From positions 1 through 38,695 of IMG/VR virus record IMGVR_UViG_3300019776_000132: a stretch of DNA of 38,695 bases. One strand, written 5' to 3'. The number at the start of each line of letters is the position of its first letter. Position 1 is the first letter of the stretch. Of this stretch, positions 242-15,049 are shown piece by piece. A program made the position numbers and the translations under genes. The notes below the pieces were generated by a model, which saw nothing but the letters and a program-made list of their open reading frames with translations, was not told the origin of the DNA and searched no databases. Source of the DNA: a virus.

Positions 242-1291
242 TTAGAATTTTTGCATTTTAGCAACTCTGGCGGCAACCCAGTCCTCAACGGATGTCGAGG
301 TTTGGAATCTTTGATAGGCTTGATCGGCACTCTTTTTCGCTGTCTTTGGCCCAGACTTAGCTGCTCCAGCACCAAACGGGGTTCCCGGCACTTTGGCCTT
401 GGAGACTACTCCCGCTGCTTTCACGGCTACTTTGGACTTCTGACTGCGATGAATGGATCGGACGGCATGCGCTAGAATGTAGGGAAGTTGCGGTCCCAAA
501 TCTGGTACATACTTGTTAACCTGTTCAACTAGTGGGTCAGACAGTAACGCCTTGTATTGTTTACTAAGCTCGGAATCCTCGTTGGCTAGTTCTGGCACTT
601 CCTGCGGGATCAGTCCCGTGTAGTGCTTTTCCATCTGCACACGCTGCTCGCGTCGAGCGAGTTCTGCGTGCTGTGCTGGAAGGTACTTTGCCATTGCCTC
701 CCGCGCATTGCGGTTGGCTTTACGGATTTCTTTTTTCGTAAACTCTCGGTCGCCCACAACTATGATGTCTTCTGCACCGTAGTCTTCGTGTTCTTCCAAG
801 ATATTGTCGGTTTCCTCCGCGACCTTCTCCAGTTCCGCAAACTTGGCTTGGAGACTCTCAACTGACTCAATGTCACGAAATGGGTTCTCCTCCTGCGGTA
901 CAACTGGTAGTGGTTTCGTTTCGGCCTGAGAACTCAGCTTCTCCTCAAGAGCTTTTTTCTGCGCGGTCAACTCACCCACACGGTGGAGCAACCTGCTGCG
1001 GCTCTTTTTGGCTAAAGCTTGGAGTTGCTCTGGGTTGAGCGACAACAAGTCGATTTCCTGTTCCTCTTCGCCTTCTTCCTCTTCTACTTCCTCGTCGGAC
1101 TCCTCTGGTTCGTCGGAAACTGCCTCTGGCTCCAGAGACTCTTCCGTTTCCTCCCAAGATTCATCCTCTGGTTCAGTAGCCGTGGCTTCTGGTTCAGAGA
1201 CTTCCTGACTCCTCCGATTGATATAATCATCGAAAGATATGTTAGACGATGGGATTGCGGCTCCATCGGTAGCCTCGGATTGCACATTCAT
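242..1291 (-). CDS. Head scaffolding protein
   Basis: This 349-residue protein lies immediately upstream of the major capsid gene (12 nt gap), the standard place for a scaffold. Residues about 28-80 are extremely acidic, with runs of Glu and Asp, followed by charged helical segments predicted to form coiled coils (about 85-130 and 140-240). The C-terminus is basic and Ala/Lys-rich (about 285-349). An acidic, helical body with a basic helical tail is typical of phage scaffolds, whose basic C-terminus binds the capsid shell. The start has no Shine-Dalgarno. It probably heads a scaffold-capsid-head protein transcript ending at the terminator at 37332-37374. No protease motif is visible. The role is inferred from composition and position, not from a strong sequence signature. 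Confidence 0.8.
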   Translation of the reverse strand: MNVQSEATDGAAIPSSNISFDDYINRRSQEVSEPEATATEPEDESWEETEESLEPEAVSDEPEESDEEVEEEEGEEEQEIDLLSLNPEQLQALAKKSRSRLLHRVGELTAQKKALEEKLSSQAETKPLPVVPQEENPFRDIESVESLQAKFAELEKVAEETDNILEEHEDYGAEDIIVVGDREFTKKEIRKANRNAREAMAKYLPAQHAELARREQRVQMEKHYTGLIPQEVPELANEDSELSKQYKALLSDPLVEQVNKYVPDLGPQLPYILAHAVRSIHRSQKSKVAVKAAGVVSKAKVPGTPFGAGAAKSGPKTAKKSADQAYQRFQTSTSVEDWVAARVAKMQKF

Positions 1292-1322
1292 GTTTTTGAC
1301 ACCAGTTAACGCCCGGCGGCGG

Positions 1323-1361
1323 CGATGACTTATGAATGTTGGGGGAATATATATGTGTCAA
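1323..1361 (-). promoter_or_regulatory. Possible promoter for the scaffold-capsid transcript
   Basis: Reading the minus strand, a perfect TTGACA (1361-1356) is followed 18 nt later by ATTCAT, a poor -10 with 3 of 6 matches. The predicted start is near 1325, about 30 nt before the scaffold ATG. It follows the terminator at 2062-2098, so a promoter is expected in this interval. The weak -10 keeps the call tentative. Confidence 0.3.
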
Positions 1362-1377
1362 TGAGCTGGGCATAGCT

Positions 1378-1396
1378 TGTGGATATGTGTGAATAA
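1378..1396. promoter_or_regulatory. Two adjacent DnaA-box-like sequences
   Basis: TGTGAATAA at 1388-1396 is an exact reverse match to the DnaA box TTATNCACA. TGTGGATAT at 1378-1386 differs from the TGTGGATAA form at one position. They are in the same orientation, separated by 1 nt. A third near match, TTATACACG, lies at 2033-2041. The phage encodes a DnaA domain IV protein (29958-30305), which makes binding here plausible. Origin function is inferred. Confidence 0.5.
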
Positions 1397-1403
1397 ACTA
1401 TAT

Positions 1404-1431
1404 GTCAGAAATAATGGGTGGTTTTTCTGAC
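1404..1431. promoter_or_regulatory. Inverted repeat beside the plus-strand promoter
   Basis: GTCAGAAA (1404-1411) and TTTCTGAC (1424-1431) are perfect 8-bp arms around a 12-nt spacer. The repeat sits between the DnaA-box-like pair and the -35 at 1443. Neither strand has a T-run after it, so it is not a terminator. An operator is the simplest guess. Confidence 0.4.
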
Positions 1432-1442
1432 GAACTTGCGTG

Positions 1443-1471
1443 TTGACTTGACGCAAAAACGCTAGTATATT
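1443..1471 (+). promoter_or_regulatory. Strong sigma70-type promoter on the plus strand
   Basis: TTGACT (1443-1448) and TATATT (1466-1471) are separated by exactly 17 nt; each matches 5 of 6 consensus bases. The predicted start is near 1478, the first base of a strong RNA stem. No convincing plus-strand protein gene follows, which points to a noncoding RNA product. Confidence 0.6.
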
Positions 1472-1477
1472 TGCGTT

Positions 1478-1582
1478 GACGAGGGATCGGACTCATCGTC
1501 ACTCTTCACCCCGCTAAACCGAAAGGTTTTAGCTGCAAGGCTACACGAGTACTCCGATCTCCTCGTGTGGCCTTTGCCTTTT
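1478..1582 (+). ncRNA. Structured small RNA or attenuator-like leader, not recognised
   Basis: The transcript predicted from the 1443-1471 promoter folds in two exclusive ways. In one, 1479-1491 pairs with 1553-1566 (13 bp with one bulged base at 1560). In the other, 1537-1549 pairs with 1562-1574 (13 bp, one G-U), followed by a T-rich tail, as in an intrinsic terminator, with a small 5' hairpin 1478-1482/1496-1500. Both keep a stem of about 8 bp closed by a GAAA tetraloop (1513-1533). Shared bases 1562-1566 make the folds mutually exclusive. No known RNA family was recognised. The T-tail (TTTGCCTTTT) is imperfect. Confidence 0.5.
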
Positions 1583-1650
1583 ACCGCAGGAGCCATGACA
1601 TATTCAAGGAATCGAGGAACGCTAAAACGACCGCACGAAACCTAGGTAAA

Positions 1651-1708
1651 AGTCTCACAAAGGTGTCGCCTGATGATCGATGAAGCGACTTAATAAAGTG
1701 TGACGACT
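1651..1708 (+). other. Second nested helix in the gene-free region
   Basis: 1651-1659 pairs with 1699-1708 (9 bp with one bulged C at 1704), enclosing a 5-bp hairpin GTCGC/GCGAC (1665-1669 with 1685-1689). It lies downstream of the RNA at 1478-1582 and may belong to a longer plus-strand RNA or be a DNA-level structure. Confidence 0.35.
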
Positions 1709-1942
1709 AGAGAGCTTGATGCCGCCCCTCTGCACAACCTTCGGCTATCTCTAGTTCCAGCTTCTGCTGGTGTGCATGTCGTCCTTTCCGAAAAATATAC
1801 GGGAGTTCCAAAAGCACAGTTAGTCGGCTTACGGCGAACTGTGTCTGCGAGCCTTCCTCCAATGCCGGGAGTTGATGGTGTTCTAATGCATCATAAACCA
1901 TCCATAAAGTGTCCATATTGGCTTATTTAAGCACACTTATCT

Positions 1943-1988
1943 CGCCAGTTAAGTGGAATCCCGCCAGTATTACGCCACTTACTCGCCA
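1943..1988. repeat. Iteron-like CGCCA repeats with 11-bp phasing
   Basis: CGCCA occurs at 1943, 1962, 1973 and 1984. The last three are exactly 11 bp apart, about one helical turn, which would place them on one face of the DNA. A 7-bp inverted repeat TAAGTGG/CCACTTA (1950-1956, 1975-1981) overlaps them. An initiator or regulator binding array is a reasonable inference. Confidence 0.4.
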
Positions 1989-2061
1989 CATTTGACGTAT
2001 TAAGTTCTGCTTAACAGCTCAAAAATAACCATTTATACACGGTTATAGCTGGATTTGAGTA

Positions 2062-2098
2062 TAAAAAGAAAGGCCACGGGGATGAAACCCGTGACCTT
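2062..2098 (-). terminator. Intrinsic terminator of the late transcript
   Basis: On the minus strand an 11-bp stem (2098-2088 with 2080-2070, one C-A mismatch, ACGGG/CCCGT core) is followed by TCTTTTTAT. It stands 72 nt after the stop of the last small gene of the terminase-portal block and before the scaffold-capsid unit. Confidence 0.8.
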
Positions 2099-2169
2099 CC
2101 AACCAATGATGAACAATGAAACAAAAGCACTTGCGTGCTAGAAACTTGTAGTTCGGGTTGGTTGCGATG

Positions 2170-2385
2170 TCAAGACTGCTCTGTCGTGAGCATGGTCAGT
2201 AGCTCGTCGAGTGTGGCAACACTGCCAACAACCTTCATGACCTCGTTACTTTCCACGCACTGGCGCAGGTCTCCAAAGAAACGCTCACGCTCGTCGCGGA
2301 TGAACTGGACGATTGCCTTGAACTCATCTCGGTCGGAAAGTGCTTCGATTGCCTGCTGGACTGTTGGTTTCGGTAGTGGTGTCAT
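2170..2385 (-). CDS. Small acidic helical protein, function unknown
   Basis: This 71-residue protein is the last gene of the terminase-portal transcript before the terminator at 2062-2098. It is largely alpha-helical and charged (SDRDEFKAIVQFIRDERERF in its first half) with no cysteine pairs and no membrane segment. The ATG is preceded by AGTAACCA, the A/C-rich leader common in this genome, and has no Shine-Dalgarno. No family was recognised. Position next to portal accessory genes suggests a virion or assembly role, which is only an inference. Confidence 0.7.
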   Translation of the reverse strand: MTPLPKPTVQQAIEALSDRDEFKAIVQFIRDERERFFGDLRQCVESNEVMKVVGSVATLDELLTMLTTEQS

Positions 2386-2400
2386 TGGTTACTGGTAAAG

Positions 2401-2529
2401 TTACTTCTTCTTGGCCTTTTTATTGGGCATGCGCTCCATCTTGATCTCGATCTCGACGTATCCGCCTTTGCCCTTTTTCTTGCCGTTTCCGTTTCCGTTG
2501 TGACCGCAGCCATTAGTTTTACTTTTCAT
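2401..2529 (-). CDS. Tiny Lys/Gly/Asn-rich basic protein
   Basis: This 42-residue protein begins MKSKTNGCGHNGNGNG, continues with Lys/Gly repeats, has a short Val-Glu-Ile-Glu-Ile strand and ends in a Lys cluster. It fits snugly between its neighbours (4 nt upstream, 15 nt downstream) in a run of five short basic genes after the portal. The strong positive charge suggests binding to DNA or another polyanion inside the head. No family was recognised. The reading frame is short, so existence is supported mainly by tight packing and start/stop spacing. Confidence 0.55.
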   Translation of the reverse strand: MKSKTNGCGHNGNGNGKKKGKGGYVEIEIKMERMPNKKAKKK

Positions 2530-2533
2530 AAGA

Positions 2534-2719
2534 TTACTTGCGTTTTTTCATTCCAGCCTCGGACATGGCGATTGCGATTGCCTGCTTGCGGCTTTTAGCC
2601 AGTGGTGCTTTCTTTGGTCCTTTAGGGTTGCGACCAGCGTGCAGAGTGCCTGATTTGTACTCGCCCATGACCTTTGCGATCTTGGCTTGTTTGCCTGCTT
2701 TAGTTGTTGGTTTCTTCAT
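2534..2719 (-). CDS. DUF6496-like small basic phage protein
   Basis: This 61-residue Lys-rich protein has the pattern KVMGEYKSGTLHAG followed by KKAPLAKSRKQAIAIAMSEAG. The element SRKQAIAIAxSEAG near the C-terminus is what I know of the DUF6496 family of short phage proteins, whose function is not established. It sits in the cluster of small basic genes downstream of the portal. The length and the motif order match the family well. The start lacks a Shine-Dalgarno. Confidence 0.8.
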   Translation of the reverse strand: MKKPTTKAGKQAKIAKVMGEYKSGTLHAGRNPKGPKKAPLAKSRKQAIAIAMSEAGMKKRK

Positions 2720-2723
2720 AGAG

Positions 2724-2948
2724 TTATTTCATCGACTTGCTGCCCTTGCACTTCCACTTGCGGCGTGAAAGATTGTTTGGTGAGTTTGGATCGGACTTCC
2801 AGTCACCCTTGATCTTTGCAGAACGAGCGCAGTAGGAATCACCCTTTGAGGTTCCGGGCTTGATGGTCGCACCCTTCTGCCCGTAGCGCACGGTCTTCTT
2901 GCGACCTGTGGCAGGGTTTGTAACTACTTTTGAGAACTTCTTTTCCAT
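2724..2948 (-). CDS. Small basic conserved phage protein with KKTVRYGQKGA motif
   Basis: This 74-residue protein reads as a compact basic domain: a beta-rich start (KVVTNPATGRKKTVRYGQKG), then KPGTSKGDSYCARSAKI and a C-terminus with CKGSKSMK. Short proteins with this layout (NP.TGR.KTVRYG..G and P...KGD.YCARS) are common near phage portal and terminase genes, but I cannot name the family with confidence. Its start codon overlaps the stop of the 2948-3199 gene, indicating translational coupling. Two cysteines are too few for a classical zinc finger. Confidence 0.75.
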   Translation of the reverse strand: MEKKFSKVVTNPATGRKKTVRYGQKGATIKPGTSKGDSYCARSAKIKGDWKSDPNSPNNLSRRKWKCKGSKSMK

Positions 2949-3199
2949 TACTTTACTGGAACTCGTTTAGCGGACGATGGCGTACCACGCTCTTTCCACT
3001 GCGATTGACGATAAGCAGTTACATCGTCGGCAATCTCTTTTACTATTTTTCCTGCAAGTCTTGAACTTGGATTATTTTGAAGGTGTTTCACCTGTCCTCG
3101 CTGCATTTTTTCTTCAGCGATATTGTGAGTGTAACGGCGATCTCCAGATTTTCTGGCAATTTGGCCTTTAAGCCATGCTGTTTTAGGTTTGTATTCCAT
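2948..3199 (-). CDS. Small basic protein downstream of portal, function unknown
   Basis: This 83-residue protein starts MEYKPKTAWLKGQIARKSGD. The frame is open further upstream into the portal gene, but the ATG at 3199 is preferred: it lies just past the portal stop and follows the genome's leader style (CACAAACTAAACATT), while the upstream extension would be read antiphase through conserved portal sequence. The product is basic and mostly helical. It is part of the short basic cluster 2401-3199 and couples to the next gene at 2948. No domain was recognised. Confidence 0.7.
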   Translation of the reverse strand: MEYKPKTAWLKGQIARKSGDRRYTHNIAEEKMQRGQVKHLQNNPSSRLAGKIVKEIADDVTAYRQSQWKERGTPSSAKRVPVK

Positions 3200-3215
3200 A
3201 ATGTTTAGTTTGTGA

Positions 3216-5291
3216 TTACTGCTGCATTCCCTGTGTCTGCATTCCACCCATCTCGGCTGGAGCGGTTCCGATACGACCAATCTCTGCGTTCTGGGCTTGC
3301 TGAAGCTGGAACTGATACTGCTCGGCGTATTTCTGGAGTCGCGTTGCGAATGCCTCGTCCTGCTGTGCGCGTTGTGCGACATCTGGTTGTTGGACATAAG
3401 CCTGCACAAGCTGCATTGCGATCTGTGCGCCATTCGGTTGCGCTGGTACTTCGATGCCTGCAAAGATTTTGGCGAGGTCGTCGGTGACGTTCTTCATCAC
3501 CTTCTGTTGCGCTTCCTCTGCTGGCTGGAGAACATAGTCGGCAAAGATTGGGTTGATGCTGGATGCCGTAAACTCAAGCAACTTGTTGACATCCATGATT
3601 CCGTTGCGGTCGAGTTGGACTAGCGACACCATGTTTTTAAGCTGTGTCTCTGCCGTCTCTGGGTCGTTAGACTGGGAGTCGAAATTCACCACGATGGAGA
3701 AGTTCTCGTCGGGGCTTCCCTTGGTCATCACCTGCGGGTTTGGGTTGCCAGTTACCTGAAAGAAAACTTCATCTGGTCCCATGCGCTGGAACAGTTTCCA
3801 TGCGGTGTTCAGCACATCGCGGACATGGTCCAAGAATTTGCTGACAAAGTATTGCTGGCGCATGCTTGCGAGCGGATTGTTCATGTCCAGACCAACGGAG
3901 CGGTCTGCCTGTCCAATCATCGACACCTCAACTTCGATAGAACCATTGTCTTGAGGAGGAGTCGGGCCGAATTGAATCTCGCCCAAACGTCGATAAGGTA
4001 CTCGCCTGCCCGGACCCCAGTCGGACGGTGGTTTCCCTGCTGGGTGCATGAGGGGTGGGAGAGTCGCAAGAGAAGCGCGATCAATACGGCTATCACGCTC
4101 GGTTTTGATCTGCATCTGTGGGCCTCTGAGTATGTCGCTAAAGGTCTGTACCTCATACATTCGTTTCTGGTTATTGGACAAACGGGTTACGACAAATGGA
4201 TAGTCGTCATATCCGTTAAGCAATTCGTGCTTGGCATAGCCCTCGGACTGCGGGTGGAATACGGTGCAGTAGATGCCCTCGCTGCCATCCTCCTCGTCAA
4301 TTAGACGCTGGTAGCAGTACACCACCATTACAAGGTCGTTGTCGTCGGTTATGGGCAGGCGGGTGTCCGTCTTGAGCTTCTCGCCATCGTAATACATGCT
4401 ATCCTTGCCGCGCAGACGCTCGATAGCGTTTTCGACCCAGTCCTCATCCCAGCCCTCGTTGGCGACCTTCTTCTCAAGCTCTTGGGCGGTCAGGAATGTA
4501 CGCCAGAAGATGTAGGGGGAACGCTGAGGGTCCGAAACATAGGACGGGAACAGCACCTCGCCATCGGGGGCGCAGGAGTGGACCACTGGACGATCCACGG
4601 AAACCCTAGGAATCGGTATTTGGGCCTCTCCCTTCGTTCTGAGGTCTTTGAGGGCTTTTCTGGCTCTCTTAGCCGAAAGTGCGGGGTAAGCCTGAGAAAT
4701 CAATCCTAGGGCCATTTCTGAGGAATTTGGGTCCAAGAGCATGTCCACGATCTCTGGAGCGGCTTGTGCCACCTCGTCGAGGGTCAGCGTCTGGAGGTAG
4801 GTGCGGGACTCCCGTTGCCAACCCACATAAGAAATCATCAAGCCCTTTTCGAGCAGGTAGTTGGCTCCCAGTTCCATGTGTTCGCGGAAGTTCGGGATGT
4901 AGGTCGAGCGCATCCATTTCAAAAATCCAGAGACCATTGCCGCCCGTGGCATGGATGCCATGCTGGTCGGGAATGCCTTGATGTGACTGCGTTGGAGTGC
5001 TTGGTCGAACAGGGCCACATAGGTGTCAATCCGCTCGCCAATGACATTGACCTCTTGGTCGGACGCACCCTGCCAAGGGAAGGCATTAGCGCCATTTTTC
5101 CGCAGGTCATCGGATTTCCCGTCCCAGATGTTGCGGCGATCCTCGTAGGAACGCAGGCATGACTCAAAATAGTAGTCTAGATCAATGAGGCAGGTATCGT
5201 AGGCGTTGGCAAGTTCGCCAATGTTTGGCTCCTTCTCAACATAGATCATGGCCTCGCCTTCGAGTGCCTCGTTGTCATATTCAGTTTCCAT
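3216..5291 (-). CDS. Portal protein
   Basis: This 691-residue protein lies directly after the large terminase subunit (with one small gene between), the standard terminase-portal order. The N-terminal region contains WDGKSDDLRKNGANAFPW followed by GASDQEV, the W.G..D..VN/P.I type of motif seen in large podoviral portals, and the length is in the range of P22-like portals (about 700). A central beta-rich part carries PDGEVLFPSYVSDPQRSPYI, and a Gln-rich helical C-terminus (about 600-691, QLVQAYVQQ, QQDEAF, QFQLQQAQ) resembles the helical barrel of large portals. The dodecameric portal is the DNA channel at one head vertex. Codon use and frame are intact; the C-terminal Gln/Met-rich tail is low complexity. 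Confidence 0.9.
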   Translation of the reverse strand: METEYDNEALEGEAMIYVEKEPNIGELANAYDTCLIDLDYYFESCLRSYEDRRNIWDGKSDDLRKNGANAFPWQGASDQEVNVIGERIDTYVALFDQALQRSHIKAFPTSMASMPRAAMVSGFLKWMRSTYIPNFREHMELGANYLLEKGLMISYVGWQRESRTYLQTLTLDEVAQAAPEIVDMLLDPNSSEMALGLISQAYPALSAKRARKALKDLRTKGEAQIPIPRVSVDRPVVHSCAPDGEVLFPSYVSDPQRSPYIFWRTFLTAQELEKKVANEGWDEDWVENAIERLRGKDSMYYDGEKLKTDTRLPITDDNDLVMVVYCYQRLIDEEDGSEGIYCTVFHPQSEGYAKHELLNGYDDYPFVVTRLSNNQKRMYEVQTFSDILRGPQMQIKTERDSRIDRASLATLPPLMHPAGKPPSDWGPGRRVPYRRLGEIQFGPTPPQDNGSIEVEVSMIGQADRSVGLDMNNPLASMRQQYFVSKFLDHVRDVLNTAWKLFQRMGPDEVFFQVTGNPNPQVMTKGSPDENFSIVVNFDSQSNDPETAETQLKNMVSLVQLDRNGIMDVNKLLEFTASSINPIFADYVLQPAEEAQQKVMKNVTDDLAKIFAGIEVPAQPNGAQIAMQLVQAYVQQPDVAQRAQQDEAFATRLQKYAEQYQFQLQQAQNAEIGRIGTAPAEMGGMQTQGMQQ

Positions 5292-5570: not shown

Positions 5571-8114
5571 TTAGTATCCTCCTTGTCCTTGGATAGTTAC
5601 AGATATAGCCTGCCCGTCCACATGGTCAATACCAGACACGGCAGCGTAGCGTAGAACGTCGATAGGGTCTTTCCATGCCTCCTTCAGCCCTCCGTCACCC
5701 GTGTACTCGGACAGGGCTTGGATGATGTTCTCGCAGTCGCTGCTGACATAAAAGTGCGGTCGGTTGACCGAATCCCTAGGCTTGGTGGTATCCCACGCCA
5801 TTTTGCCTATCAAAGCTTGCAGACCATCGTCGATCTCCAGACCGGGCGCGGGGATGCATACGATGTCTTGGTCGTTCAAATCCTCGATGATTGAGGAAGC
5901 CCCGTCAGAGGCTTGGTACTTGGCTGCACCTAGTCGGGGGTCGATCAGTCTCTCTGCGATCTCCTCCTCACCCTCAAGGTCGTGGATTAGTTCCACATAG
6001 TCTCGGATACCAAACCCTTGGCCTTTCGCCCCCTGTCCCGGAACCCACTTGCCGCCACGCCACTCAGCCCAGTCACCCACATCCACGCCGGGGTATTCAC
6101 GGTAGACCCAAAAGGTTCCGCTTTCATCCACGGCGATCCAGCACATAAACCAGTTTTTGGCTCCTGCTGGGTCGATGATGTGGTAGCGCGTGATATTCTT
6201 AGTTGGAATCTGTTCGGGGCTAACAATGTTAACTTCCTTGTTGAACTTGGGAAATTTGGTGGCATGGGACTTGACTGGAACCCCGTACGCGCGAATTAGG
6301 ATCTCCTCCCTAGGACGACCAATCAGTGTCTCCTTAATTCGCTCGTAACCACCGAAAGGGTTGTCTTGGGAGTGGAAGTAGTGGACGCTCGCATTGCGCT
6401 TTTTACTTCTCTGGACATATGGCACTAGCTCTCCGTTGAGCAATTCAGCCTCGCGGGTCTCAATGCTTCTAGCACCGTCTAGGTACTCTTTGATGACCTC
6501 CGTGTACCCGTCGATAGGAGTGAAGGTTAACAGCATTTTAGCATCCCGTGTGGCTAGGCGGAACCGCAGGGTGTTGATAAGCTCTGGACCACCCAAGAAT
6601 TCGTCTGCCCATACCCCAATGTTATTCCATTGTGGGTTTCTGGAACCAAGCTCTGCGCCCTCTAGGATAGTTGGGTTGTTCTGATACTGCGAGTAGGTCT
6701 TGAAGATGATCTGCGAGCCATTGGGGAGGATTAGCGAGGAATCTGTAAACCCGTTCTTCTTGGTGTAGCTGATGTAAGTCCCAGAGGATGTCTGCTTGGT
6801 ACGCAGTTCCGCAGGCAACCAGTCCCAGACGGCACTCTGCTGCTGACGGATGGACACCTCGGATGTCTGCGCGAAACACATGATCTCGGAGTTGGGGTTT
6901 TCAACTGCCGCCCTCACAACGCAGTAACTACCCCATGACGTTTTGCCCGAGTTGTGCGAAATGACACCTGCCGCAATATAGTTGTTGTAGATTGGAACAT
7001 GGAAGTCCCACACAACATCATCTCGGAGGTAATCGACAGATACGATCTTGACACTATTACCTCCCGTGCTATTATCCCCGCATGTCCCACAACATACAAT
7101 ACCCCGTCGAACTGATCCGCACTTACATCCAAGAAGGAAAGACTCAAGATTGGATAGCGCAAACCCTAGTGTCTTCTGGATACGATTCCAGAATAAACGC
7201 AAAGGCGATTTACAAAGTCTGCCGCAAACATGGGATACAATGCCAGAGAACTGGTCCTCGCGGTGGAGATGAGCATCCAGAGTGGCAAGGTGGTCGCCAC
7301 ACAAACAAGTCTGGGTACATTGAGATTTATTGCCCAGATCACCCAATGGTTGTTGAAAAGAATAATCGGCGTGAAGCAAAGAGCAACGGCAAGTATTACA
7401 GGAAAGAGAAGTACATGCTTGAACATCGCTTGGTGATGGAGGAAAAGCTTGGGCGTTATTTGAAACAAGAAGAGGTTGTTCACCACATTGACGGCAACAA
7501 GCAGAACAACGCACCAGAAAATCTTGGGCTTTTTTCCAGCAACGCAGAACACTTGAGAGAAACGTTGAAGGGTTGCGTACCGAAATGGACTGCGGATGGC
7601 GAGGCCCGGATGAGGGCTGGGAATTCACTAGAACACCGCCGACATCTAGCGATCCTAAGGAACGCCATCCAAAGGGAGTCAGGAGCAAGTGAGCCTTTGA
7701 GCAAAAGAGAGCTTGCCCGTTATCTAAATAAACTCGGTAAATCCCCGAAACAGGCTTGCGAAATGGTTTCTCTGCACGTGCTGCCACCATTTGACGACCG
7801 TCCCACGCATTGACATGGAAGTCAGAATCAATCTCATCGACCCTTTTGTAGCAGTCTGCAACCGGGTCGTATATCTCCTGCTCCGCTCCAAGACAACGGT
7901 TGCCTCCTAAAGCTACAATTTCATTGACTTCTTTAAGTTGCTCCTCGGCCTTTGCCCAGTGCGGAAGTCGGAAGCCAAAGCGGTACGGGTCGCGTTCTGC
8001 GTTGTCTACAGCTTCATGGTAGACCCTGTGAAGCTCAACAAGCTCCTCTGGCTCCATAAGAGCGATCTCGTCGTCCGTAGGCGGCGACAGAATCTGGTGA
8101 GTGCGCCACTTCAT
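5571..8114 (-). CDS. Terminase large subunit interrupted by an intein
   Basis: The 847-residue product is the packaging ATPase-nuclease split by an intein. The N-extein (1-73) ends ...VALGGNR and the C-extein (389-847) starts SGKTSWGS; splicing restores the Walker A loop GGNRSGKT and yields 532 residues, a normal large terminase length. Further motifs are Walker B ending in WADE (D504-E505), the coupling motif LLTFTP (528-533), and the RNase H-like nuclease with HIIDPAG (D648) and LIDPRLG (D725). Without splicing the P-loop is broken, so packaging should depend on splicing. It overlaps the upstream gene by 4 nt, and the next gene starts 3 nt past its stop. The leader ACAAACC has no Shine-Dalgarno. 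Residues 74-388 are described separately as the intein. Confidence 0.93.
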   Translation of the reverse strand: MKWRTHQILSPPTDDEIALMEPEELVELHRVYHEAVDNAERDPYRFGFRLPHWAKAEEQLKEVNEIVALGGNRCLGAEQEIYDPVADCYKRVDEIDSDFHVNAWDGRQMVAARAEKPFRKPVSGIYRVYLDNGQALFCSKAHLLLTPFGWRSLGSLDVGGVLVNSQPSSGPRHPQSISVRNPSTFLSSVLRCWKKAQDFLVRCSACCRQCGEQPLLVSNNAQAFPPSPSDVQACTSLSCNTCRCSLLHADYSFQQPLGDLGNKSQCTQTCLCGDHLATLDAHLHREDQFSGIVSHVCGRLCKSPLRLFWNRIQKTLGFALSNLESFLLGCKCGSVRRGIVCCGTCGDNSTGGNSVKIVSVDYLRDDVVWDFHVPIYNNYIAAGVISHNSGKTSWGSYCVVRAAVENPNSEIMCFAQTSEVSIRQQQSAVWDWLPAELRTKQTSSGTYISYTKKNGFTDSSLILPNGSQIIFKTYSQYQNNPTILEGAELGSRNPQWNNIGVWADEFLGGPELINTLRFRLATRDAKMLLTFTPIDGYTEVIKEYLDGARSIETREAELLNGELVPYVQRSKKRNASVHYFHSQDNPFGGYERIKETLIGRPREEILIRAYGVPVKSHATKFPKFNKEVNIVSPEQIPTKNITRYHIIDPAGAKNWFMCWIAVDESGTFWVYREYPGVDVGDWAEWRGGKWVPGQGAKGQGFGIRDYVELIHDLEGEEEIAERLIDPRLGAAKYQASDGASSIIEDLNDQDIVCIPAPGLEIDDGLQALIGKMAWDTTKPRDSVNRPHFYVSSDCENIIQALSEYTGDGGLKEAWKDPIDVLRYAAVSGIDHVDGQAISVTIQGQGGY
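7048..7075 (+). promoter_or_regulatory. Promoter of the antisense HNH gene, predicted leaderless mRNA
   Basis: TTGACA (7048-7053, consensus) and TATTAT (7070-7075, 5 of 6) are 16 nt apart. The ATG of the HNH gene begins at 7082, 7 nt after the -10, so the expected transcription start coincides with the start codon. There is no ribosome binding site. The promoter lies in DNA that, on the other strand, encodes the residues just before and at intein block F. Confidence 0.6.
7082..7813 (+). CDS. HNH homing endonuclease encoded antisense within the intein
   Basis: This 243-residue protein has an N-terminal helix-turn-helix-like part (about 7-50, ELIRTYIQEGKTQDWIAQTL). It then has an HNH nuclease domain with EHR at 114-116, HHIDGN at 134-139, N147 and H157, matching HNH_3-type homing enzymes. 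It would cut the uninterrupted terminase P-loop site so that repair copies the intein. It is the only convincing protein gene on the plus strand and lies wholly inside the intein DNA. Its C-terminal quarter (about 165-243) is antisense to the block A-B splicing region, so two functional sequences may be encoded there. HNH codon positions 2-3 plus the next position 1 form the terminase codons. No homing motif is encoded in the sense intein frame. Confidence 0.88.
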   Translation: MSHNIQYPVELIRTYIQEGKTQDWIAQTLVSSGYDSRINAKAIYKVCRKHGIQCQRTGPRGGDEHPEWQGGRHTNKSGYIEIYCPDHPMVVEKNNRREAKSNGKYYRKEKYMLEHRLVMEEKLGRYLKQEEVVHHIDGNKQNNAPENLGLFSSNAEHLRETLKGCVPKWTADGEARMRAGNSLEHRRHLAILRNAIQRESGASEPLSKRELARYLNKLGKSPKQACEMVSLHVLPPFDDRPTH

Positions 8115-8443
8115 GGTTTGTATGCGTCAGTTTCCATTAGTATGTCGATTATCCGATACACGCTCCCGCATTCGTCGCATCCAAATGCATCATCCTCTGG
8201 AGGCAGTGAACCTCGGTTGCCATCAACAAAATGAAGCTTGCTGTACTTCTCGCAGTGTCCGCAAAGACCAATATGAGGCTCGATATGCTTCTCCAGCACT
8301 ACATTCCACACCTTGGAGTCAAACTTTTCAGCTAAGTACGATGCGTAAGCCAGAGTGTTACACTGGTGCGCTTTTCCATCATGCTCAACCACATAGTGGT
8401 AGAAGCTCAGTTCATCAAACCTTGATTCTGGTTCCTGTATCAT
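8111..8443 (-). CDS. Small protein with two CxxC knuckles
   Basis: This 110-residue protein lies between small and large terminase subunits, overlapping each by 4 nt. The C-terminal half has LCGHC and GCDEC, two CxxC pairs about 26 residues apart that could bind zinc. The N-terminal half reads as a mixed alpha/beta fold (FYHYVVEHDGKAHQCNTLAY). The position between the terminase genes suggests a packaging accessory role, for example DNA or terminase binding, but no family was recognised. Confidence 0.8.
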   Translation of the reverse strand: MIQEPESRFDELSFYHYVVEHDGKAHQCNTLAYASYLAEKFDSKVWNVVLEKHIEPHIGLCGHCEKYSKLHFVDGNRGSLPPEDDAFGCDECGSVYRIIDILMETDAYKP

Positions 8444-8979
8444 GCGACAATTTCAGCATCGACTGCCTGCGACTTTACCTTGCTAGCAATGCGTGAGCGT
8501 GCCTCTGCGATCATCTTCGCGGCATCATCGATACTCGCACCCTGCCTATGCTCGACCACTGCGGTTGCCATTCCAGACAACTGCATGGACTTGTCCGTGA
8601 GGACACCCACGGTGATGGCAAGTCGGTCGGGTGAGATGTTCTTGAGTTGCTCTGGGTCGTCGCTCAACTGGTCTGCCTTCGCGAACAGGAGGTCGGTGTA
8701 GGTCTCTGCCGCCATCGCGTATTTCTGCGAGAATTCTTTACGCTTCGTCTCCAGAGTGTCGCTATGCCTCCACATGAGCGACCGCACGGTGTCCCTAGCG
8801 AGTCCCGTGATCTCGGAGGTGGACTTGATAGACTTACCCTGCGCGAGGAGCCACAGGGCTTTTGCGGCTGCTTGGGGATTCCACCATTCCACACGCTGCC
8901 TGTTGCCGTGTTCCTCGGCTCGGCGCATGACCTCGGCGAACCATTCGTGATCTGGTTCTGCGGCTAGTTTCTCGCTCAT
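8440..8979 (-). CDS. Terminase small subunit
   Basis: This protein of 179 residues (ATG at 8979) has a helix-turn-helix at about 55-80 (KSIKSTSEITGLARDTVRSL) that would bind the packaging site, followed by helical segments for oligomerisation and a C-terminal tail. It lies upstream of the large subunit in the usual order. An in-frame ATG at 9003 is possible, but 8979 is preferred: it is preceded by AATAAACCAAAACCA, the A/C-rich leader seen across this genome, and it avoids overlapping the end of the 2019-residue gene. The assignment rests on motif, length and position. Confidence 0.82.
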   Translation of the reverse strand: MSEKLAAEPDHEWFAEVMRRAEEHGNRQRVEWWNPQAAAKALWLLAQGKSIKSTSEITGLARDTVRSLMWRHSDTLETKRKEFSQKYAMAAETYTDLLFAKADQLSDDPEQLKNISPDRLAITVGVLTDKSMQLSGMATAVVEHRQGASIDDAAKMIAEARSRIASKVKSQAVDAEIVA

Positions 8980-8989
8980 TGGTTTTGGT

Positions 8990-11900
8990 TTATTGAACTC
9001 CAAGTTTCTTTAGAAACTGTTTTCGCTCGGCATCGGTAATTCCGATTGTCTCTATTTGTACTGGACTGGCACTTCTAAGACTTTGGACAATGGAATCAAA
9101 TCCTCTGGGAAGTACTCCTTCACCTGTTCCAGAATCGCCTTGAGTTGGTCCACCGACAGTGGCTTGCTCTCGTCCTCCAACGAGTCCTGCCCCACGAACC
9201 TCTCCAGAAGTTGCTTCTGAAGCGGCCCCAGATTCTGCAATTCGCTGTTTGACCAAGCTTCCTTCAGATTGTCCGCTAGTAATTTCAGTCTTTCTTCCTT
9301 TTTCATAAGTCATAAATACGACATCTGGGTTGGATTGTCCATCCCATCCTTGCTCTGTCCAGAACATTTTCAGTGCCGCTTCTTTTTGTGCTATTTTTTC
9401 TTCATGATCGGCCTTTTTCTCGCCTTTTTTGCGCTCAATTAGGTATTGGCGATCAAATGGCATCCTTTCGACCTCTTTCCAGCCATATCTCTTGTATAGC
9501 GATGGCAGCAATCCATTGGGTGTTTTAGATGTTGGGACAGCATATGCATCTAGTTTGTTTACCCCAACCTCCAAAGCACGCTGCATGATCAGATTCAGCA
9601 TGCCCGGTATGCCAGTGTTATTCACCACGGAAACAAGCTCATTTCCGTCCTTGCTCTTTTTGACCCCAAACCAAATGTCATTATCACCAAGTTGGTGTAC
9701 TTCCATTTTATCTTCCTTGATCATCTTTTGAAGCTCAGAAAGATTGTATTGAGTGAGCGAGTCGCGTGCTGGGCTTCTGTGAATTGCACCAATTAACTCA
9801 GCCAGCCCCTTGAGTGATGCGCCACTGGTGAACTTTCTCCAATTGCCATTCACGGCTTTTACTGCTTCACGAATGTACGGAACATTTCCAGATATATTTT
9901 GTGCCTCATTGATGGCGTTCTTAATTTGATCTGTCAATGGTTGAAATTTAATGCCTTTGTCCTTTGGCATTCTAGCAAGAAGATAGTCAATTCTACTCAA
10001 TGGTGATGCAGCACGCATCGTGTTGATCATTTCTGGAGTAGAAATTCGGAATGGTACAGGGTTATCAAAATGAGCCAACACCTTACCCGGCATTACAGTT
10101 CCATATGATGGATGTTTTGGAATATTGAAATCATCAGCAGAAAGATCACTTCTTAGTTTCCAATTGCCATTCTCGTCTTTAGTTGCCAATCGATCTACAT
10201 CAATTAGAAGAAGCCCAGTAAGTGCGTTTTTCTCAACTCCATGATATTGTGGGTCTCTTGATTCGGTAAGAATCGTTTCTGGAGATGGTGCGCCCAAATC
10301 TCTTGATCTAACATTGGACAATTCACTCATGATTGCCGCTCTTGTTTCAAAGGCAGCATCATGAATAAACTTGGTAAGTTTTTCGGTCCCAATGTTAGGC
10401 ATGTCTTTTGCCACTGGAACATTTGCTCTAATATGATCAGAAAGGTCGCTAGCAGTTGCCTTTTTCAAAGCACCGCTAATAGCCATATCATTTACTTTTG
10501 ATATGTAAATTTCTGGTGTTTGTGCATTTGATTTGTGTGCTGATTGTGCCATTGTGTGTGGCGCAAACAATGCCCAGTTATGACCAGATTCATCTTGCCA
10601 GATTGAATCGGTCTTCACCATATTCTGCAAAATAGTGTTAATTCCACCACGCTCAGAAGCCCAAACTCCAGTTATATCATCTGGTTTTGCTGGATCAAAG
10701 TTCTGAATAGGATATCCCGGACCACCGCTGACATCCACACCTCGAATTTTTCCACCAGCACCAAGCAAGTCTGCCATACCAACAACAATTGGCTTGTTTT
10801 TGATAAGCTCAAACAACTCATCAGTAATCCGTTCTGGTATGCCCTTTGCGCGAGCAGCTTTATTGGTCGCCACAATTGGGTTTGGATTCCATTGTTTTGC
10901 TTGCTGTGGTTTTTGATCACCCTCTGGCATGAACCTCTGCGATGGTGCAGGGGCTTGCTCTGGCTCCATCCACCCAATGGCATCTGCTGAATACGAGTCC
11001 AGCATCGCCTTGGATGTGATTGGTGTCAGCTTCTCATCCATCTCGTTGAGCGCAAACATCCGCTTGCCGTCTGCCCACAGACCTTGGGCTTCCTGCTTGT
11101 TGGCGACTTGGTTAAGGTTTTCTGGGGAAACCTCTGGCATCTGGCGTTGCTCTGGCATCCGCACTGCACTCACTGCCTCGTAGCTGAATGGCATTGCTGG
11201 ATACTCGTCTGGCGACATTGGAACTGCCTTGCTGACGCGATCTGCACGGTATGTGCGGTAGACATTGTCACGGCTTTTCACCCCATCCTCCAGCAGGATT
11301 GGGTTGAGGACTGCCTGCTCCTTTTGGTTGAGCAGACCAAACATCGTGTTGATGAACTTCTTGCGCTCATCGGCCTCGACCGCACCATACTTCTGCTTAA
11401 AGAATTCAATGCTGTCCACGCCTTGCTTGTGGTAGTCCATCATAGCCTGCGTGTCGCGCAGGATCAAATCCACATTGCCACCATACAGCTTCTTTCCACG
11501 CCTATCCTGTGAGCGTTTCTGGATGTTCTCATGCAGCTTTGTGACTGACATTAGTCCGAATAGCAGGTTGCCGTCCTTGGAGATGGTGACAGCTACTGGA
11601 ACCGTGTCGCGGAGAGTAGCACCCTGCGGCTTGTAAACCACCTTTCCTGCCTTGTTGCGGGTGGTAGCTGGGAAGTTGATCATGACCACGCGATCTCCAG
11701 CACCCTTGCGGATCAGCTTGTTCATCTCGCGGATGATGCGCTTCTGCTCTGGGTTGTAATTGTTCTTGGCGAACATTTCGGTGAGAACATCGTTGGACAA
11801 CCATCCGGGTTGGAATTGCCCTTCGTCGTCCACGTAAGCCTCACCCTTTTCTGGGGCATAATTCTCGCTCCTCTTCCTCTGCAAGACTTCCTTTGCAGTA

Positions 11901-14900
11901 AGCCCCGCAAGCGCACGCGAAAGCTCTGTAGCCCTGTCTAGTGCCACAGGCTTGCCGTCCTTTAGGATCGGCTTGTTGGCATCGTCCACTTGCACCAGAG
12001 GATGCAGAAGCTCGGCATCAATGCCGTCAGCTGGGTTGAGCAGGATCGGCGCACCAGAGTCTGGCTTGTCGCTCATGAGCGGATCAAATTGCCCCGGCAC
12101 AAGCCCTGCACTTCGCCTATTCATGTCGCGGAACATCTTGCTGGTGATCGGGTCTCGCTTGACACCCTCTGCGTCTAGGATGCCGTTTCCAGTCACCCAC
12201 GCACCGTTCTTGTCGATCATGCCACCGCTCTTGAAGTGGAGGTCTTTCAGGACTGGAATGCGAGGCAGGACGGTCTCAAGGATCGACCCCAGCTTGCGCC
12301 TAGCAGCACCACTGGCGGCGACCGCTCCAAGCTCACCAGATTCTGCCATTGCAGCATACTGGTCGGCGTGCTTTTCGATGAAGTATTCCACCGCAATCTT
12401 GTCTAGCGGGTAGATGGCATCCCTCTCGGCGTTGGACATGCCCTCGACACCAAGACGCTTGTAGTAACCATCTCGGAATGCCTCAAAATTCGGGTCCAGC
12501 TTTCCATCCCTAGAACGGAACAAACCACCAACCGTGTTGTTCTTTGTGTCACCTAGAAACAGGGCAGAGATGCCGGGTTCCATGTTGTTCTTGATGACGG
12601 TGTGGTGGAGCGTTTCGTGAGCAACCAGTGCCTTGATCGGGTTGGTTGAATTAACATTGATAACTGCCGTGTTGGTGTTGGGGTCGTACCTGCTAGCACC
12701 AGAGTCCTTAAAGGTGTAGTTGAGTGTTGGGTTGGCGATGGCGTAAGTGGAAATAGCCCTGCGTGTTCCAGCAGGAATTGCCTCAAACAATGCCTTCTGG
12801 CGCGGGTCAATAAGATCACGCCTAAAGTTAATCTCATCACCAATGGAAAGCTCACGCATGCGTTTCTTGGTTCCCATGAATGCACCACCACCAGCAGCAA
12901 ACGAACCACCAATAAAGAATGACTCCGAACCTGCTTGATACAAGGTCTCTGGACGCATGTCAGCACCGTCAGATAGGTACTCAAACATCAAGTCCGTAGG
13001 TGCGGCTGCGGCAATACCACGACCAGCCCTGCGGATTGTGTCAGATGTGACACCACCTAGGTCTAGCATGTTGAATGTATGTGCAAATCCACGACTCAAG
13101 GAACCGGGTGCGGTGTGTCTCGCCACACGCTTCCAGAATGGCATCTGAGCTCGAACATTCTCCATCTCTTTTCCTACATAACGGAATAGCTTCCCGTAGT
13201 TGGACAGAACCTTGCCAGTCTTGAGTGCTGCCGCCCCAGCTCCTAGTGCGCCAATGATTGGGTTTCCAGCCAAACCTACTACCCCGGCTGCGCCTACGGC
13301 AGCTGTGTACATTTGATCCAAACCACGCTCTTGCAGGAAGTTTGTGACTGCCGTGTCAGTCTTTGAAATTGTATCACCAACACGCTCCAAGGTTGCGCCA
13401 ACTGCCTTTGCTGGCATGGAACGCATCTGCCTTCCAAGCTCCATCGTTTGCAGAACCTTCTGTGAGTACGCCTCTGGAATGCGAGTGGCTAGGCTATTAC
13501 GCTTTGCGACAAGACTTTCCAATTCCGCAGTTATGGTTGGAAGTGTTGTCCTAATTTGGTTGGCACTATCAGAAATTCTGCTGGCAACTTGAGATGCTTG
13601 GTTAGCCCTAGCAACCAACTCTGGGCTTGCTCCTGCGCGTGTGGAAATGTCCAAAGCTAGACGATTCGCAACACTCACGGTTGCGGCTTCTTTTTTCAAA
13701 ACAGCATTAGCTGCCTCGATAGCTGTTTGCGCTTCAGCAATTGCCAAATCTTTAGCGGCAATACTCGCCATTCTTTTTTGTGCGGTAATTGCCACCCTGT
13801 TTGCAAGTGGTGCTGTTCTAGCAGCCTTTACTGCAATGGACGCTGGGATAGCATTAGTTGGGTCTAGTGCTATTTGTGAAAATGCGCTTGTTTGACCATA
13901 TTGCTTGTCAAACTCCTCTTTACCAATCCTGCTTTTTGCAGATTCAGCTTCAGCTACAGCATTGTCCATTCCAAGAACAACTTCTGCTATTTCACCCGTA
14001 CTTAAATTGACGATGTTTTGTTGGGTTTGCCATTGGCGTTGACGAGCAGCATACAATGCTTGCTCTGCCTCGTCTTCCATTCCATCAGGAAGAACATCAT
14101 AAAGCTTTTTACCGATCCAAGCCGAGCCGATATCTGCGATTCCAGCCCACCCCGCAAGGTTTTCTACAGCACCCTCAACGAGACCAAGACCGCTTGCGGT
14201 CATTTTGTCTCTCAATTCTTGAGGTCTGAGATCAGTTCTTCCAAGTGCGCTATCCCATGTTTGGGAGTTGTACCAAAACGATTGGGCTTCTTGGCCTATT
14301 CTTGTTGCACCTCCTAACGCAGCATCAACAACAAACTTACCCGTGTTGCTGGCGATTTCTCCAAAGGTTGCGTTTGGTCTTATGACTTCATCATCCCAAA
14401 GAATCTGAAATGCTTTTAGATTCTCTTCTTTTCCAATGTCAGCAATTGGAGTAAGATACGCCTGACCCTTTTCGTTGATCGTCCCATCCTCGTTGAATAC
14501 TCCAGACTGCTGGAGGTTGTAAAACAACTGACCCCTTTCGGTTGGATTCCCATCTTGATCTACCAACCCTAATGCACGCACGCTGTTTGCGTTTAGCGGT
14601 TTAGAGAAAACTTCCAATGGTGATTTTGCGATTTCGCCAGCATCGTTTCGTAGCGAATCAACATCCGCTCCGATTACATCAGTAACGGCTTGCTCGTATG
14701 GCGTGATTGACACCATATCCCTGCTGAATTGCGCTTCGGCTTGGTTGCGAAAATTTGACAGAACTTGAGGCTGCTCCTGCGGAATAACCATGCTATCCCT
14801 TGCTGGCATCTCGGTGAGACTACCAACTTCTGGGGCTGGTTGAGGTTCGTGAACATACTGCTCCAGTGGACTCAGATTGCGAGCGACTGGTGCTTGAACT

Positions 14901-15049
14901 GGTTGATTGTATGCATCAACCAGAGTCTGTGGCTGCAAAACCTCTAGTTGCCCAAGAGTTCTTTGGACATCATTGGCAAACAAATCCAGTCCGCTTTTGA
15001 CAGCTTTGTTGAATTTGGGCTTTTCTTCTTCGGGTACATTGAATGCCAT
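8990..15049 (-). CDS. Giant internal virion or ejection protein with HExxH motif
   Basis: This 2019-residue protein is the largest in the genome and sits in the virion block. The first third is helical and Ala-rich (about 390-560, coiled-coil-like). A hydrophobic segment follows at about 580-615 (MYTAAVGAAGVVGLAGNPII), suited to membrane insertion. AHETLHH with H811-E812 and H815 is an HExxH zinc metallopeptidase signature, preceded by a strand containing NTNTAVINVNST. The rest resembles the very large multi-domain proteins that podoviruses and related phages carry in the head and inject. Expected roles are forming part of an ejection conduit and perhaps cleaving peptide bonds. The last 100 residues are Gly/Ser-rich and overlap another frame (9052-9306). 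It ends 10 nt before the small terminase start. Confidence 0.85.
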   Translation of the reverse strand: MAFNVPEEEKPKFNKAVKSGLDLFANDVQRTLGQLEVLQPQTLVDAYNQPVQAPVARNLSPLEQYVHEPQPAPEVGSLTEMPARDSMVIPQEQPQVLSNFRNQAEAQFSRDMVSITPYEQAVTDVIGADVDSLRNDAGEIAKSPLEVFSKPLNANSVRALGLVDQDGNPTERGQLFYNLQQSGVFNEDGTINEKGQAYLTPIADIGKEENLKAFQILWDDEVIRPNATFGEIASNTGKFVVDAALGGATRIGQEAQSFWYNSQTWDSALGRTDLRPQELRDKMTASGLGLVEGAVENLAGWAGIADIGSAWIGKKLYDVLPDGMEDEAEQALYAARQRQWQTQQNIVNLSTGEIAEVVLGMDNAVAEAESAKSRIGKEEFDKQYGQTSAFSQIALDPTNAIPASIAVKAARTAPLANRVAITAQKRMASIAAKDLAIAEAQTAIEAANAVLKKEAATVSVANRLALDISTRAGASPELVARANQASQVASRISDSANQIRTTLPTITAELESLVAKRNSLATRIPEAYSQKVLQTMELGRQMRSMPAKAVGATLERVGDTISKTDTAVTNFLQERGLDQMYTAAVGAAGVVGLAGNPIIGALGAGAAALKTGKVLSNYGKLFRYVGKEMENVRAQMPFWKRVARHTAPGSLSRGFAHTFNMLDLGGVTSDTIRRAGRGIAAAAPTDLMFEYLSDGADMRPETLYQAGSESFFIGGSFAAGGGAFMGTKKRMRELSIGDEINFRRDLIDPRQKALFEAIPAGTRRAISTYAIANPTLNYTFKDSGASRYDPNTNTAVINVNSTNPIKALVAHETLHHTVIKNNMEPGISALFLGDTKNNTVGGLFRSRDGKLDPNFEAFRDGYYKRLGVEGMSNAERDAIYPLDKIAVEYFIEKHADQYAAMAESGELGAVAASGAARRKLGSILETVLPRIPVLKDLHFKSGGMIDKNGAWVTGNGILDAEGVKRDPITSKMFRDMNRRSAGLVPGQFDPLMSDKPDSGAPILLNPADGIDAELLHPLVQVDDANKPILKDGKPVALDRATELSRALAGLTAKEVLQRKRSENYAPEKGEAYVDDEGQFQPGWLSNDVLTEMFAKNNYNPEQKRIIREMNKLIRKGAGDRVVMINFPATTRNKAGKVVYKPQGATLRDTVPVAVTISKDGNLLFGLMSVTKLHENIQKRSQDRRGKKLYGGNVDLILRDTQAMMDYHKQGVDSIEFFKQKYGAVEADERKKFINTMFGLLNQKEQAVLNPILLEDGVKSRDNVYRTYRADRVSKAVPMSPDEYPAMPFSYEAVSAVRMPEQRQMPEVSPENLNQVANKQEAQGLWADGKRMFALNEMDEKLTPITSKAMLDSYSADAIGWMEPEQAPAPSQRFMPEGDQKPQQAKQWNPNPIVATNKAARAKGIPERITDELFELIKNKPIVVGMADLLGAGGKIRGVDVSGGPGYPIQNFDPAKPDDITGVWASERGGINTILQNMVKTDSIWQDESGHNWALFAPHTMAQSAHKSNAQTPEIYISKVNDMAISGALKKATASDLSDHIRANVPVAKDMPNIGTEKLTKFIHDAAFETRAAIMSELSNVRSRDLGAPSPETILTESRDPQYHGVEKNALTGLLLIDVDRLATKDENGNWKLRSDLSADDFNIPKHPSYGTVMPGKVLAHFDNPVPFRISTPEMINTMRAASPLSRIDYLLARMPKDKGIKFQPLTDQIKNAINEAQNISGNVPYIREAVKAVNGNWRKFTSGASLKGLAELIGAIHRSPARDSLTQYNLSELQKMIKEDKMEVHQLGDNDIWFGVKKSKDGNELVSVVNNTGIPGMLNLIMQRALEVGVNKLDAYAVPTSKTPNGLLPSLYKRYGWKEVERMPFDRQYLIERKKGEKKADHEEKIAQKEAALKMFWTEQGWDGQSNPDVVFMTYEKGRKTEITSGQSEGSLVKQRIAESGAASEATSGEVRGAGLVGGREQATVGGPTQGDSGTGEGVLPRGFDSIVQSLRSASPVQIETIGITDAERKQFLKKLGVQ
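9052..9306 (-). CDS. Overlapping frame inside the end of the giant virion gene
   Basis: This 84-residue frame starts MKKEERLKLLADNLKEAWSN and is +1 relative to the giant gene, whose final 100 residues it overlaps. Its composition is protein-like: regular amphipathic helices rich in Leu, Glu and Lys (PLSVDQLKAILEQVKEYFPE). The giant gene's own translation here is Gly/Ser/Ala-rich and low complexity (GSLVKQRIAESGAASEATSG). Either it is a nested gene, or ribosomes shift +1 from the giant gene at A-rich sequence near 9306, or one frame is decayed. Comparison across relatives would decide. Confidence 0.45.
   Translation of the reverse strand: MKKEERLKLLADNLKEAWSNSELQNLGPLQKQLLERFVGQDSLEDESKPLSVDQLKAILEQVKEYFPEDLIPLSKVLEVPVQYK

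Follow-up and report, generated by a model that had tools for sequence, protein, structure and literature searches.

The gene for the terminase large subunit (TerL) in the 38.7-kb virus record IMGVR_UViG_3300019776_000132, the whole of which is called the window here, contains an intein, and the strand opposite to this intein encodes an HNH endonuclease of the homing type (Table 1). The two are interpreted as an ambisense homing intein – an antisense HNH gene with its own promoter, the antisense translation of which would be removed from the terminase by protein splicing. Sequence comparisons and structure models together give this interpretation a probability of roughly 85%.

In the proposed mechanism, the minus strand would encode a self-splicing intein in the terminase P-loop, and the plus strand of the same DNA would encode a free homing endonuclease with a helix-turn-helix (HTH) region and an HNH domain, transcribed from a sigma-70-type promoter within the intein. 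Where the HNH gene lies opposite, a ribosome translating the terminase would produce a disordered loop of ~180 residues, and the Hint domain would remove this loop along with the intein. Since the loop would leave with the intein, the main demands on the linker reading would be that it contain no stop and that it leave splicing unimpaired. The presumed targets of the HNH protein are terminase P-loops that lack the intein; once these are cut, the composite would be copied in by recombination. That the intein splices, that the HNH is expressed, where it cuts and that homing takes place are predictions from sequence.

The TerL open reading frame (ORF) is made up of 73, 315 and 459 aa, and the exteins would total 532 aa if spliced. 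An earlier sequence-only reading of the window had recognised intein blocks A, B, F and G in the terminase frame between GGNR and SGKT; all four are present in the 315-aa insert, and the insertion point is the Walker A motif of TerL. The Pfam family Intein_splicing matches the minus frame with an E-value of 1e-8, slightly below the family cut-off. A profile search with the intein matched the NpuDnaB, SspDnaB and Mtu RecA inteins, and a Foldseek comparison of the intein model with the PDB returned the Mtu RecA, NpuDnaB and SspDnaB mini-inteins. C1, H69 and N315 are invariant in 44 aligned inteins, and H314 is found in at least 90% of them. The +1 residue was S, T or C in the loci recovered by a uniform parser, where this was a parser condition, and the same was seen in loci outside the parse. 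In AlphaFold models of the 44 inteins, residues 1–95 and 278–315 had a predicted local distance difference test score (pLDDT) of 96–98, and the linker between them scored about 30–50, mostly below 50. The linker had been described as lacking an endonuclease motif, and no nuclease family was found in it in searches of Pfam, PHROGs and NCBIfam. By all sequence and fold tests made, the insert is a class-1-type intein, with splicing itself predicted.

The HNH gene lies antisense between and over the splicing blocks of the intein. The 243-residue plus-strand protein proposed from the letters alone was recovered as an intact ORF with a match to Pfam HNH_3 (E 4e-11), and many PHROG HNH families match it too. 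EHR is at aa 114 and HHIDGN at aa 134, followed by N and then H, in the proposed order, and these catalytic residues are invariant or nearly so across the antisense HNHs. The AlphaFold2 (AF2) model has a mean pLDDT of 90 and consists of the N-terminal HTH, the HNH core and C-terminal helices. A PDB sequence search with the HNH alone gave no match; the best PDB fold match of the model is the homing endonuclease I-HmuI (1u3e), with a probability of 0.98 and a weak E-value of 0.094. Set against I-HmuI, which is intron-encoded, the window protein has the same HNH catalytic motif and the domain order HTH, HNH, C-terminal helical tail. A homing-type endonuclease can be inferred from motif, fold and mobility, presumably one with site-specific cleavage.

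Table 1. Predicted features of the terminase gene, its intein and the antisense HNH gene (positions in the window)
Feature	Position	Strand	Details and evidence
Terminase large subunit (TerL) gene	5571..8114	-	847 aa with intein; ORF and Pfam Terminase_6N, E 1.2e-5
Intein	6951..7895	-	315 aa, C1...H314-N315, +1 Ser; Pfam Intein_splicing, profile matches, AF2 Hint fold
Intein block A (CLGAEQEIYDPV)	7860..7895	-	C1 invariant in 44-sequence alignment
Intein block B (GQALFCSKAHLLLTP; [ST]xxH)	7674..7718	-	H69 invariant; antisense also codes HNH C-terminus
Intein linker, residues 96-277	7065..7610	-	Cys/Ser/Leu-rich; predicted disordered, pLDDT <50
Intein block F (RDDVVWDFHVPIYNNY)	6978..7025	-	D297 invariant; V300, N305, Y306 nearly so
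Intein block G (AAGVISHN) and splice junction HN/S	6951..6974	-	N315 invariant, H314 nearly so
HTH + HNH_3 endonuclease gene, antisense	7082..7813	+	243 aa; ORF, Pfam, PHROG, AF2
N-terminal HTH DNA-binding region, predicted, aa 9-49	7106..7228	+	AF2 helices 9-17, 22-31, 40-49; weak HTH_21 match
HNH catalytic region (EHR...HHIDGN...N...H)	7421..7552	+	motif order, conservation
-35 box TTGACA, predicted HNH promoter	7048..7053	+	consensus match
-10 box TATTAT, TG before it	7070..7075	+	ends 6 nt before HNH ATG

The two reading frames are arranged so that HNH codon position 1 lies opposite terminase position 1, HNH position 2 opposite position 3, and the HNH wobble position opposite position 2. 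Stops in the terminase frame then come from NTT-A, NCT-A and NTC-A across HNH codons, a rule that the sequence-only reading had stated and that is right for this phase. Synonymous codon shuffling of the window HNH gave a mean of 7.1 terminase-frame stops, and none of 4000 shuffles left the frame open; the observed number is 0. The same was found in all 36 distinct inteins tested, with 0 host-frame stops observed versus 4.3–10.2 expected. Freestanding HNH relatives have a mean of 5.5 stops in the corresponding antisense frame, and only 2 of 38 are stop-free, one of which (L281) is probably itself a truncated antisense copy. The dipeptide F-[IMTNK] was seen in 0 of 217 cases in antisense HNHs and in 41 of 190 in freestanding ones; this follows from the host frame being open and adds no independent evidence.

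Divergence by codon position changes along the intein. Among the window-type inteins (group A), divergence at host positions 1/2/3 was.136/.021/.293 in the N end outside the HNH gene and.098/.045/.290 in the C-terminal splicing block, and it was.126/.314/.083 in the linker, where host position 2 is the HNH wobble position. The linker values in the other groups were.032/.138/.018 (B),.038/.148/.025 (C),.034/.071/.016 (D) and.207/.452/.122 (E). In every group tested, the HNH wobble position in the linker diverges about 2–8 times faster than HNH positions 1 and 2. The same flip, resting on few substitutions, was found in the Ymer group of cultured phages described below. This switch between the host frame in the splicing blocks and the HNH frame in the linker indicates that both genes are under selection. 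A remnant had been expected to show an unconserved HNH frame beside a conserved terminase frame, and the opposite was found – the same linker DNA in group A has an amino acid identity of 0.84 in the HNH frame and 0.62 in the terminase frame. As judged from these rates, the linker reading in the host frame is constrained mainly to remain open.

The HNH gene had been placed between blocks B and F. This is correct for the linker, but the HNH C-terminus also overlaps block B. In this overlap, divergence is low at every codon position in group A (.042/.084/.046), which is what constraint on both readings would produce, and the third-position rate is lowered in groups C, D and E as well. By this measure part of the HNH gene is truly dual-coding and not confined to the free linker.

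The predicted sigma-70 promoter of the HNH gene has a spacer of 16 nt and 11 of 12 consensus matches, with 0.7 sites of this quality expected in the region on both strands. Boxes this close to the HNH ATG put the start of transcription at or near the start codon, and a leaderless mRNA is therefore predicted. The promoter score upstream of the HNH gene exceeded the 95th percentile of controls, taken from the antisense of exteins, in 26 of 39 types, and exact TTGACA was the best -35 box in 17 of the 39 versus 0.4% of control zones. Shine-Dalgarno-like sequences are also present upstream of the HNH gene in L139, L143, L165 and L188. HNH expression probably relies on this promoter within the intein, with an mRNA that is probably leaderless.

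Searches with the HNH, with the terminase and with HNH alignments yielded about 350 loci (L numbers), of which the uniform parser found 136, with 76 distinct inteins, to have an HNH gene antisense inside an intein. The antisense phase is identical in all 136, and the HNH ORF and its catalytic motif are intact in all of them; a few parser rows are mis-delimited (L149, L282), with phase and stop counts unaffected. The hosts include many TerL families, with the intein inserted in the P-loop before SGKT/TGKT, or between K and T/S (L143, L157, L165). Two terminase-like hosts, L278 and L282, are from bacterial metagenome-assembled genomes (MAGs). Other hosts are a clamp-loader ATPase (L182, DNA_pol3_delta2/AAA) and an AAA_34 (strawberry-notch-like) helicase of Polaromonas sp. 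CG9_12 (L279). Outside the parse, a large phage DEAD/SNF2-like helicase (L155, 1850-6373) contains an antisense-HNH intein of ~386 aa at the motif GDTVKNDS, which is not a P-loop. A plasmid search gave 5 weak HNH matches.

Several observations adjoin this set. L281, also in Polaromonas sp. CG9_12, is a second HNH closely similar to that of L279; it is situated where a contig begins and probably represents a second, truncated copy of the arrangement. The terminases of L184, L212 and L231 have two inteins, the antisense-HNH intein in the P-loop and, towards the C-terminus, a longer one that resembles the usual LAGLIDADG inteins with an in-frame endonuclease.

Cultured phages also have the arrangement. 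Eight of these form the Ymer group: Pectobacterium phages Ymer, Abuela, Koroua, Amona, Sabo, Taid and Pappous, and Dickeya phage Setonix. The phase is identical in the four whose sequence was compared. In Ymer (L355, OP748252) the arrangement is at 1041-3305 and 2414-3112; TerL is annotated as a 'hypothetical protein', the antisense HNH is not annotated, and the Ymer paper (PMC11445585) makes no mention of HNH or homing. In Pseudoalteromonas phage PHS3 (L356, KX912252, 1044-3167), the HNH is annotated and the TerL annotation is truncated.

A search of terminases for the intein with and without the HNH gene, as the sequence-only reading had suggested, found empty, mini and full alleles together at the same TerL site. 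Of 80 TerL loci, 46 are empty relatives with contiguous GGNRSGKT, 5 have HNH-less mini-inteins of 130–136 aa (L069, L079, L072, L105 and L108), and about 28 have the antisense HNH. Over the shared ends, L069 and L079 match the window intein at 85% and 78% identity. Loss of the HNH seems to have produced the window-type mini-inteins, apparently in two separate events for L069 and L079. Intein and extein relationships are discordant: the window and L046 have exteins that are 90% identical and inteins that are 54% identical, and L247 and L261 have exteins that are 42% identical, inteins that are 78% identical and HNHs that are 80% identical. Every pair tested in groups A, C and D, as well as 143 of the 210 pairs in group B, had lower third-position divergence in the intein than in the extein. 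Patchy alleles, extein/intein discordance and lower silent divergence are, at the sequence level, marks of a mobile element in a cycle of gain and loss, exchanged between hosts.

Intein distances and HNH distances are correlated (Mantel r 0.63, p 0.0005). In the HNH tree, which is weak at 114 columns, 35 of the 41 antisense sequences fall in one group (support 84/91). The unconstrained tree needs about 5 changes, and a single antisense clade including L281 is not rejected (approximately unbiased test, p-AU 0.19). The shared phase is not the one with the fewest stops in freestanding HNHs. The single fixed phase and the HNH tree together favour one ancient joining. The sequence-only reading had proposed that a homing gene invaded a mini-intein in reverse and is tolerated because its antisense translation is spliced out. 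The tolerance part of this proposal is supported by dual selection, predicted structure, and the mini and empty alleles. The invasion, in contrast, appears to be neither recent nor peculiar to one mini-intein – on the loci compared, the composite is old and common to dozens of divergent phage lineages in one phase. It is somewhat more probable than its opposite that these inteins are one widespread mobile lineage, joined once, which kept one phase, co-evolved with each reading constraining the other and the HNH C-terminus lying over block B, gained promoters of its own, and came to occupy phage terminases as well as further ATPases that act on DNA.

Homing inteins are understood to carry their endonuclease within the polypeptide that undergoes splicing. 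Phage terminase P-loop inteins with active endonucleases are well described (PMC5050341). Canonical homing inteins, such as Mtu RecA and mycobacteriophage TerL1 (PMC5050341), resemble the window intein in their Hint domain and blocks A, B, F and G, and the TerL1 inteins also in the TerL P-loop site and a sporadic distribution with empty and endonuclease-less alleles. Their LAGLIDADG or HNH endonuclease is in frame, however, while that of the window is a separate gene on the other strand. The ShiLan domain of phage methylases conceals an HNH gene that uses a different frame of a stop-free insert (Arsenault et al. 2025, PMC11855218). It has in common with the window an HNH homing-type gene in an alternative frame, an open host frame and a scattered distribution; it differs in being on the same strand (third frame), without splicing motifs or a Hint fold, and no spliced product is expected, whereas the window has the opposite strand and a splicing domain. 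In one locus of a Nitrospira MAG (L292, 1376-4342), a DNA-methylase ORF remains open across an HNH gene on its opposite strand. The phase is that of the window, no intein blocks are recognisable, and there are 0 stops versus 8.7 expected; the locus is an antisense counterpart of the ShiLan insert. That some group I introns have antisense endonuclease genes, as the sequence-only reading had stated, was confirmed by the group I introns of Porphyra rDNA, where a homing endonuclease gene is on the complementary strand (PMC2585584). As in the window, the homing gene is antisense to a self-splicing carrier, but the window carrier is translated, whereas in Porphyra it is an RNA intron and its host gene specifies a non-coding rRNA, so that the antisense gene there need not keep a host frame open. 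An antisense endonuclease in an intein was not found in the full-text literature, with most subscription papers and bioRxiv preprints outside reach. The parts are known; as far as the literature could be searched, the architecture is new.

Some points count against reading the locus as an ambisense homing intein. Intein models of Pfam and NCBIfam score the window just short of, or below, their curated cut-offs. The promoter is predicted from its match to the consensus, and the antisense-extein control zones may differ in composition. Identity profiles of the flanks at the insertion site have no clear co-conversion peak. In addition, HNH proteins near terminases can act in packaging or cos cleavage (HK97, discussed in PMC10448857). 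This last point would fit an HNH that is a packaging co-factor, or an antisense regulator of the terminase, lying in the intein by chance, and a convergent promoter inside terL could indeed interfere with late transcription. Such a role is improbable: the HNH is absent from the 46 empty and 5 mini-intein relatives in the same TerL family, and the layout also occurs in the L182 clamp loader, the L279 AAA_34 helicase and the L155 helicase, in which no packaging role is expected. It is also unlikely that the plus-strand HNH is real and the terminase remains unspliced, with the insert a tolerated loop or TerL in two pieces. Open in-frame inserts without splicing have been proposed for ShiLan (PMC11855218), but ShiLan has no splicing motifs, and here C1, [ST]xxH, block F and HN are conserved, the splicing blocks are under host-frame selection and the Hint fold is predicted. 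In addition, an ATPase would probably not work with Walker A interrupted, as it is by this insert.

The existence of HNH-less mini-inteins means that the HNH gene is dispensable for splicing, and the gene might be a decaying remnant, with function only in the terminase/intein frame. This explanation is very improbable and was largely refuted by codon-position divergence, given the HNH wobble excess in the linker of every group tested; HNH-frame identity above host-frame identity on the same DNA, an intact ORF and motif in all parsed loci and the presence of a promoter argue against it too. Hardly any weight is given to an RNA intron in place of an intein. Group I introns of phages often contain HNH genes, and there are group I introns with antisense homing genes (PMC2585584); in the window, however, the frame is open throughout, and intein motifs, a predicted fold and host-frame selection are present. 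A candidate RNA intron was rejected, with no Rfam match at E<=1 within 6000-9000.

If the window does encode an ambisense homing intein, placing nuclease and splicing on opposite strands means that nuclease dose and timing can be uncoupled from expression of the host gene, and that long stretches of phage coding sequence are antisense-constrained. The arrangement would explain Cys/Ser/Leu-rich inteins without a nuclease motif, as well as the unrecognised or truncated terminase annotations in the Ymer genus and PHS3. As an antisense gene pair, fully nested and repeated in nature, it supplies its own controls in the form of empty, mini and full alleles. It lends itself to studies of leaderless expression, of the homing cycle and of overlapping genes, and inteins and site-specific HNH nucleases could be drawn from it.

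Other genes in the window include a TerS-like gene near the TerL gene (8440-9003), with matches to Pfam Sf6_terminase and a PHROG terminase small subunit that are both weak. A 2019-aa ORF without a PHROG match at E 0.001 is at 8990-15049 on the minus strand. At 22649-23542, also on the minus strand, there is a second HNH gene, of an ordinary endonuclease VII-like kind and in normal gene orientation.

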